Part shown: one piece after another, positions 30,456-30,688 of the stretch
How the letters are laid out: each line of letters begins with the position of its first letter
Position numbering within the stretch: the stretch's first letter is position 1
From: an uncultured Mucilaginibacter sp.
GTDB lineage: Bacteria > Bacteroidota > Bacteroidia > Sphingobacteriales > Sphingobacteriaceae
Length of the DNA: 57,795 nucleotides
NCBI GenBank assembly: GCA_903887275.1
Contig: CAISPD010000032.1
Span: forward strand, 1-57,795
Reading direction: 5' to 3'
Translations under genes and position numbers: made by a program
The notes under the pieces: generated by a model
Told to the model about the DNA's origin: nothing
The model's input: only the letters and a program-made list of their open reading frames with translations
Database searches by the model: none

Positions 30456-30471
30456 GGAAACGAAAAAAGGT

Positions 30472-30547
30472 AGTGGGAGCAGGACTCGATCCGACTGAGT
30501 CGGACCGCCTTAGGCGGATATGAGCCAGGCGAGCTACCAACTGCTCC
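30472..30547 (-). pseudogene. Degenerate tRNA-Met copy with inserted palindromes
   Basis: On the minus strand this keeps an 18-nt block identical to the D-arm of the intact tRNA at 30616-30688 (GGAGCAGTTGGTAGCTCG), the GGCTCATA anticodon loop block, and the 3' block TCGAGTCCTGCTCCC with CTACC and a T-run. The 5' acceptor strand is lost (CGTTTT-like instead of TGCGGGA) and the segment between CATA and TCGAG is replaced by 29 nt of palindromic DNA. It cannot fold as a normal tRNA. It reads as a tandem duplicate that has decayed after element insertion. Confidence 0.7.
30491..30517. repeat. Two abutting 13-nt palindromes inside the tRNA copy
   Basis: CCGACTGAGTCGG (30491-30503) and CCGCCTTAGGCGG (30505-30517) are palindromes with 6-bp (CCGACT/AGTCGG) and 5-bp arms around 1- and 3-nt centres, separated by one A. 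They replace 17 nt of the ancestral anticodon/T-arm region. Confidence 0.7.
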
Positions 30548-30557
30548 AAAACGAAAA

Positions 30558-30600
30558 TAGTCTCAAGACTCCCGATAGCTATCGGGACGACTTGAGACTA
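30558..30600 (-). terminator. Nested hairpin, terminator of tRNA-Met
   Basis: An outer 10-bp stem (TAGTCTCAAG/CTTGAGACTA) surrounds an inner 16-nt palindrome (CCCGATAGCTATCGGG, 30571-30586). On the minus strand it follows the tRNA by 15 nt and is itself followed by ATTTTCGTTTT, fitting Rho-independent termination. The inner palindrome recurs with one change at 39375. Confidence 0.65.
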
Positions 30601-30615
30601 TTGACTTAAAAAAGG

Positions 30616-30688
<73 letters not shown>

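Follow-up and report, generated by a model that had tools for sequence, protein, structure and literature searches.

The window analysed here, a stretch of 57,795 nucleotides from an uncultured Mucilaginibacter sp., carries next to an intact initiator tRNA-Met gene a second, tRNA-like segment with palindromes in its interior, and the question raised by this locus is what kind of event places palindromes inside a tRNA. The features of the locus are listed in Table 1. ARAGORN and Rfam both reported a single tRNA in the window, the tRNA-Met at 30614-30688 (-), and neither called a tRNA in the neighbouring segment. The intact gene is located just upstream of era, a GTPase gene on the opposite strand; it has no atypical features, and its sequence is identical in the 13 genus relatives compared, except for two bases in one of them (L320).

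Table 1. Features of the tRNA-Met locus, in window coordinates.
Feature	Position	Strand	Remarks
Dead tRNA-Met copy	30469..30548	(-)	Retains D-arm, anticodon-loop block, T-loop and 3' acceptor; lacks 5' acceptor strand
Palindrome 2, CCGACTCAGTCGG on the tRNA strand, CCGACTGAGTCGG	30491..30503	(-)	In this genome, found here only
Palindrome 1, CCGCCTAAGGCGG on the tRNA strand, CCGCCTTAGGCGG	30505..30517	(-)	Directly after CATA plus T
Terminator-like hairpin, loop containing TCCCGATAGCTATCGGGA (30570-30587)	30556..30602	(.)	Perfect arms of 12 nt; between both tRNAs
Intact initiator tRNA-Met (CAT)	30614..30688	(-)	ARAGORN; Rfam RF00005, 65.1 bits

The segment is a dead tandem copy of the initiator gene, as the first-pass annotation had proposed. 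It aligns with the intact gene in two 33-nt blocks of 91% identity (30463-30495 and 30516-30548), and its last 21 nt are one base off the intact sequence. The alignment also bears out the loss of the 5' acceptor strand and the retention of the D-arm, the anticodon-loop block (CTCATA) and the 3' block; the tRNA-homologous span is slightly wider (30469-30548) than the 30472-30547 originally given. The 17 nt that separate CATA from TCGAGTCC in the intact gene (ACCCGAAGGTCGTAGGT) are replaced in the copy by 29 nt, which consist of two perfect 13-nt palindromes, CCGACTGAGTCGG and CCGCCTTAGGCGG, with flanking T and A. Palindromes thus stand in place of tRNA sequence, and their description as abutting was nearly exact, a single A lying between them. 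The first-pass annotation had also allowed for an unrelated chance match, which was ruled out: with up to one mismatch, CCGNCTNAGNCGG matched three times in the window, against 0.59 expected (three were reached in one of 100 shuffles), and both exact matches of the window lie side by side within the segment that aligns with the tRNA.

The same locus was compared in the genus. The era gene was sought in 61 genomes, including that of the window, and found in 55, and loci were available for 30 (29 relatives and the window). A tRNA-Met lies beside era in all 29 relatives. Whether the copy is intact in sister species, a point raised at the outset, has a divided answer: a second, ARAGORN-intact tRNA-Met stands in tandem in eight of the 29, and a dead copy, called at a score cut-off of 30 that we set, is present in five, two of which (L314 and L323) carry the intact second copy as well. 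The dead copy of L323 carries TCCGCCCCAAGGCGGA, that of L300 contains a decayed palindrome, L322 shows a partial palindrome about 1 kb on, and those of L306 and L314 have none. No GIY-YIG nuclease match was found in the 30 era/fMet loci, up to 1.5 kb on either side of era. Among 200 family relatives, CATATCCGNCTNAGNCGG had one match, in G025, which lies in repetitive coding-like DNA with no tRNA there and was taken as chance.

Intact tandem duplicates and palindrome-free dead copies (2 of 29) are what would be expected if the initiator tRNA had simply been duplicated in tandem and had decayed, with dispersed palindromes landing at any non-essential site and with the nuclease described below unrelated to the window locus. 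The absence of GIY-YIG matches from the era/fMet loci and the near-identical 3' end of the copy fit such a plain local duplication as well, and count against the homing reading favoured below. It is possible that the window copy is a plain tandem duplicate that acquired palindromes.

The distribution of the palindromes in the rest of the genome bears on this account. The 27-nt double unit occurs only once, even allowing three mismatches, while single palindromes recur; uniqueness to the locus, named by the first-pass annotation as evidence against its claim, is therefore true of the double unit and untrue of the single palindrome. CCGNCTNAGNCGG has eight genomic sites, a count that is uninformative alone because the reversed control pattern also gave eight. 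Of these sites, six are in tRNA-Met copies, and in five the palindrome follows immediately on the anticodon-loop CATA. The palindrome is therefore not dispersed at will in this genome. Two of the six lie in the window, two on contig C28 and two on contig C274, which presumably adjoin. CCGCCTNAGGCGG is also present in copies of the other, elongator-type tRNA-Met of the same genome, and palindrome 1 has the same position in the elongator tRNA-Met copies of both contigs. One C28 site and the two C274 sites belong to a tandem array in which 5' tRNA halves repeat every 81 bp; the array lies at the contig ends, both contigs breaking off inside it, and stands in front of an intact elongator-type tRNA-Met. 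The second C28 site is in a copy with a 3' end, located behind the elongator tRNA-Met, and behind this copy lies a GIY-YIG ORF, a Met-type nuclease elsewhere in the genome than the window. On a further contig (C191), a GIY-YIG ORF with one stop follows an intact tRNA-Asn and is itself followed by a palindrome and tRNA-like remains, as judged by eye.

A dispersed palindrome family does exist in this genome, TCCCGA-N2..8-TCGGGA having 41 matches and its control none. TCCCGATAGCTATCGGGA (30570-30587), in the hairpin loop between the two tRNAs, is a member of this family. The idea that the dispersed palindrome generally inserts at hairpin tips was rejected, since by eye complementary flanks were found at only some of 15 sites. 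The original proposal of a palindromic element inserted into a tRNA duplicate hence stands in part: the tandem copy is dead and a dispersed family exists, but CCGNCTNAGNCGG is not freely scattered, and a larger, nuclease-linked pattern had been missed. The context of the window is more interesting than the dead copy itself. Dispersed palindromes, of which TCCGCCTNAGGCGGA is another example with 1 to 64 copies in each of 32 other genomes chosen for the tRNA-Met pattern, would supply the plain duplication with its material; the recurrence of the palindrome at one position of tRNA-Met copies, the concentration of CCGNCTNAGNCGG in such copies and the nuclease association at other loci argue against it, and we consider this account doubtful, though it deserves attention.

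A collection of 84,980 genomes was scanned with YTCATATCCGCCTNAGGCGG, a pattern that selects for the palindrome, and gave 103 stretches with 133 sites. By record title, 92 stretches come from Bacteroidota, three from Balneolota and six from other phyla, two having no taxon label; all six other-phylum stretches are among the sites judged not tRNA-like. Loose text rules classified 109 of the 133 sites as tRNA-like, and the remaining 24 were judged by eye as tRNA-like (14), not tRNA-like (nine) or unclear (one); about 123 sites thus lie in tRNA-Met copies. An intact tRNA-Met was present within 1.6 kb at 63 of the 103 loci and a GIY-YIG ORF at 59. The order tRNA-Met, GIY-YIG, palindrome copy was found in 35; in 17 the palindrome copy precedes the tRNA, and in four such copies stand on both sides. 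A locus with a Met-type GIY-YIG gene is present in Flavisolibacter ginsengisoli DSM 18119 (L099). Several taxa have arrays of 5' units. A Cytophagales genome with 64 palindromes (G230) was rejected as a tRNA-array genome, since of 45 palindromes read, five were in a tRNA-Met array, one was elsewhere and 39 were in another dispersed repeat. In this repeat (L169-L208), which starts with AACCCAAACTATGCATTAGGAATGCATAGTTTG, TCCGCCTNAGGCGGA lies between GGTTGACGA and TGTCAAGG at 39 of the 45 sites (by eye). The Met palindrome pattern had no match in viral_contigs, and the nuclease had none among 50,697 phage records at E 1e-5; viral carriage was rejected on these grounds. In a distant search of plasmids, the best 20 of 430 records match the intact tRNA part only.

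To escape this selection, the nuclease was surveyed independently of the palindrome, with the C28 protein as query against 149 genomes of the class of the window (Bacteroidia). A homologue is present in 77 of them, its own included. The 89 loci examined (29 plus 60 fetched) are part of all matches, and 86 rows were long enough for analysis. Sixty-six of these 86 lie beside an ARAGORN-intact tRNA, with 13 amino-acid identities represented, among which Met is over-represented because the query is a Met-type protein. The nuclease is behind the tRNA (within 900 nt) in 51 rows, and before it or overlapping it by up to 40 nt in 15. By our own arithmetic, with 33 tRNA genes above the cut-off in 3.9 Mb, about 0.3% of random places would fall 700 nt or less behind a same-strand tRNA. 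The other 20 rows have no intact tRNA nearby by our rule, which is an upper figure because L223 and L239 are one and the same tRNA-Met array; a second known flaw is the mislabelling of L236, where a dead tRNA-Ala was called tRNA-Phe. An Rfam scan of 17 of the 20 tRNA-less rows and of L221 matched tRNA families only, in L211, L221 and L232. One GIY-YIG clade (L263, L292, L266, L277, L278, L284 and L291) shows neither an intact tRNA nor another Rfam RNA; its seven rows have a support of 86 and an inner group of five a support of 98, and it is perhaps a differently targeted subfamily. At L239 (G338 C9:904800-911600), ten tandem GIY-YIG units with nearly equal match scores follow a tRNA-Met, most of them 457 bp apart.

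The ORFs are about 90 aa long. The protein encoded beside the C28 elongator copy matches PF01541 (GIY-YIG) with 58.6 bits, against a cut-off of 22.6; searches of NCBIfam and, at E 0.001, of PDB sequences gave no match. Residues Y5, Y16, G18, R26, H30 and E63 are conserved in at least 65 of the 66 tRNA-associated homologues, and we take Y5, Y16, R26, H30 and E63 to be the catalytic Tyr, Tyr, Arg, His and Glu. A quick tree of the 86 rows, built from few columns (82 inner branches, nine starred), follows tRNA identity, which changes 26 times, compared to a mean of 43 and a minimum of 38 after shuffling (0 of 1000 as low); leaving out the Met rows, the numbers are 22 and 32.8 (again 0 of 1000 as low). 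Host family gave no signal (54 changes versus 56.4; 114 of 1000 as low) in a test that is low-powered because most family labels are rare, with few rows in most families. The side on which the nuclease lies changes 11 times versus 13.8 (32 of 1000 as low), and initiator and elongator Met are unseparated (six changes versus 6.8).

Dead tRNA pieces accompany these nucleases. At 54 loci the nuclease follows the tRNA, and at 39 of them a tRNA copy was found behind the nuclease; a copy was called when its score exceeded that of the best of 30 shuffles by 8 or more, a threshold of our own. In both arrangements together, 55 aligned copies passed, 38 of them with a palindrome; five were misread or double-counted (the tRNA-Lys calls of L228 and L248, the second intact tRNA-Val of L228, L236, and the copy common to L234 and L297) and were removed, leaving 50 distinct copies. 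Within 25 nt of the copy, 33 of the 50 have a perfect palindrome (arms at least 7, loop at most 8); in two of these 33 (L229 and L257) the sole palindrome is the hairpin behind the copy, and the other 17 copies have none with arms of 7. Most of the tRNA copies listed hold a single palindrome. Palindrome density is about 9 per kb in the copies versus 1.4 per kb outside them in these loci, L296 being counted twice. The tRNA-Lys(ttt) called by ARAGORN in L228 and L248 resembles a dead tRNA-Val copy with a palindrome replacing the anticodon arm.

Pairing was counted with a fixed text pattern in tRNA-Met copies of loci that were not selected for palindromes, segments of other lengths or with other T-loops falling outside the count. 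Of 10 distinct segments, nine pair at all six positions considered; altogether 56 of 60 pairs are formed, whereas shuffling gave 18 on average and never more than 30. At the fifth pair, C-G, G-C and T-A all occur. Such changes on both sides that preserve the pairing, together with the 5'-unit arrays in several taxa and the fold of the window copy's RNA, which is better than that of shuffles (z -3.6, 0/200), might point to a functional RNA or DNA part under selection, for example a decoy, an attenuator or a processing signal. We regard this as improbable: the pairing could also come from the repeated arrival of ready-made palindromes, the copies are eroded and often broken, and just five of 29 sister species have a dead copy.

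The clearest indication of what the dead pieces are comes from the genus of G355, with five genomes. The tRNA-Met of G243, G421 and G323 has the T-arm GGGAG-TTCAAAT-CTCCC (that of G420, the fourth relative, is cut by a contig end within the tRNA), and no GIY-YIG match was found in the loci of these relatives. The intact tRNA-Met of G355 has an atypical 3' half, with the T-arm ACGGG-TTCAACT-CCCGT, and the form of its relatives sits behind a nuclease and a palindrome, three palindrome-bearing 5' units standing in front. By parsimony, the intact gene of G355 probably gained a new 3' half and the old half was pushed aside. Partial tRNA copies flanking an insert resemble the ends of genomic islands, and a displaced native half could be the attL- or attR-like piece of a tRNA-integrated island with a tyrosine integrase. 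This origin appears very improbable, given that what the pieces enclose is, time and again, a GIY-YIG ORF of about 90 aa and that the tRNA pieces hold palindromes, which att cores usually lack. The case for displaced halves is made by this one clear genus and by one family of unsure direction (G298), excluded as proof because the native tRNA-Leu(CAA) type depends on the chosen outgroup. In L381 (G423) and L379 (G298), two tRNA-Leu(CAA) types are nested with palindromes, one of them with a GIY-YIG gene between. In pairings of intact and dead tRNA-Met, the T-arm and acceptor are identical in 30 of 59 (several per locus counted); gene conversion or movement within species is therefore needed if the element brings its own half.

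These results lead us to the reading, to which we give an even chance, that the dead copy is a remnant of recurrent tRNA invasion in Bacteroidota by free-standing small GIY-YIG nucleases, each lineage specific to one tRNA identity. Either as a leftover or as damage, the dead copy is then best ascribed to a GIY-YIG homing system that targets tRNAs and provides a substitute tRNA piece. The nuclease would cut a tRNA gene (close to the anticodon loop in the case of tRNA-Met), and repair would bring in the nuclease gene and a replacement piece, leaving one working tRNA, with the displaced native piece persisting alongside as a dead copy. The palindrome, which may mark or plug the cut site, would occupy the target region of the displaced piece and prevent further cutting or rebuilding. 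Local recombination could then multiply or delete units, giving rise to nuclease-free relics such as the window locus. Alternatively, the nuclease beside the C28 elongator tRNA-Met may have acted in trans at the window. The presence of the same palindrome behind CATA in copies of both tRNA-Met types, one of them beside a GIY-YIG ORF, is consistent with homing; with no nuclease gene at its locus, the window fits the pattern weakly.

A bolder version, which we put forward tentatively and hold to be rather unlikely, is that the chromosomes of Bacteroidota harbour a large and hitherto undescribed class of selfish elements acting as a natural cleave-and-rescue drive. Each element would cleave an essential tRNA gene and make good the loss with a whole tRNA or half of one; its nuclease lineage would be dedicated to a single tRNA identity, a palindrome would block the displaced target against cutting and restoration, and the window locus would be a nuclease-free scar. 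If the homing reading is right, many odd tRNA pseudogenes and short palindromes of Bacteroidota would share one cause, annotation errors such as dead tRNA-Val copies called tRNA-Lys would follow from it, essential tRNA genes would be the arena of a homing system, and the arrival and persistence of short palindromes at fixed positions would have a concrete example.

No description of this arrangement of nuclease, tRNA and palindrome was found in titles or abstract starts of the open-licence literature, among the matches listed. SegB, a free-standing GIY-YIG homing endonuclease of T-even phages, is described in the accessible part of its report as cutting tRNA-containing DNA and driving tandem amplification of a tRNA segment by recombination (PMC13096335). 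It resembles the present nuclease in being free-standing, in its tRNA-gene neighbourhood and in the many isotypes involved, and tRNA-targeted cutting and arrays are therefore plausible here. However, SegB is phage-borne, unlike the present protein as judged from the phage search above, and displaced tRNA halves, palindromes and tRNA-specific lineages are not mentioned in that part of the report (PMC13096335).

REP palindromes, associated with RAYT tyrosine transposases and including GTAG/CGTC families, are, according to the part of the source available to us, short palindromic repeats of bacteria hypothesised to be mobile (PMC3733652). The tRNA-Met sites differ from them: GTAG or CGTC occurs within 8 nt at nine of 133 sites at most (CGTC seven, GTAG two), all on the T-stem side, and the neighbours are GIY-YIG genes. 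Y1_Tnp (PF01797) has five matches in this genome. As to dispersal in high copy, TCCCGA..TCGGGA has 41 matches there and CCGNCTNAGNCGG eight sites, six of them in tRNA copies.

Mobile double-hairpin elements of fungal mitochondria, as far as the accessible text of their report goes, consist of two adjacent GC-rich hairpins, are potentially mobile and in one case lie within an rRNA gene (PMC10085805). The window copy likewise has two adjacent GC-rich hairpins, whereas those elements are mitochondrial, no sequence in common is shown, and most tRNA copies here hold one palindrome. The displaced tRNA 3' half of G355 has a counterpart of another kind. In fungal mitochondria, homing endonuclease insertions replace the end of the host gene and displace the native end, and the same logic would apply to G355, with protein genes there and tRNA genes here.
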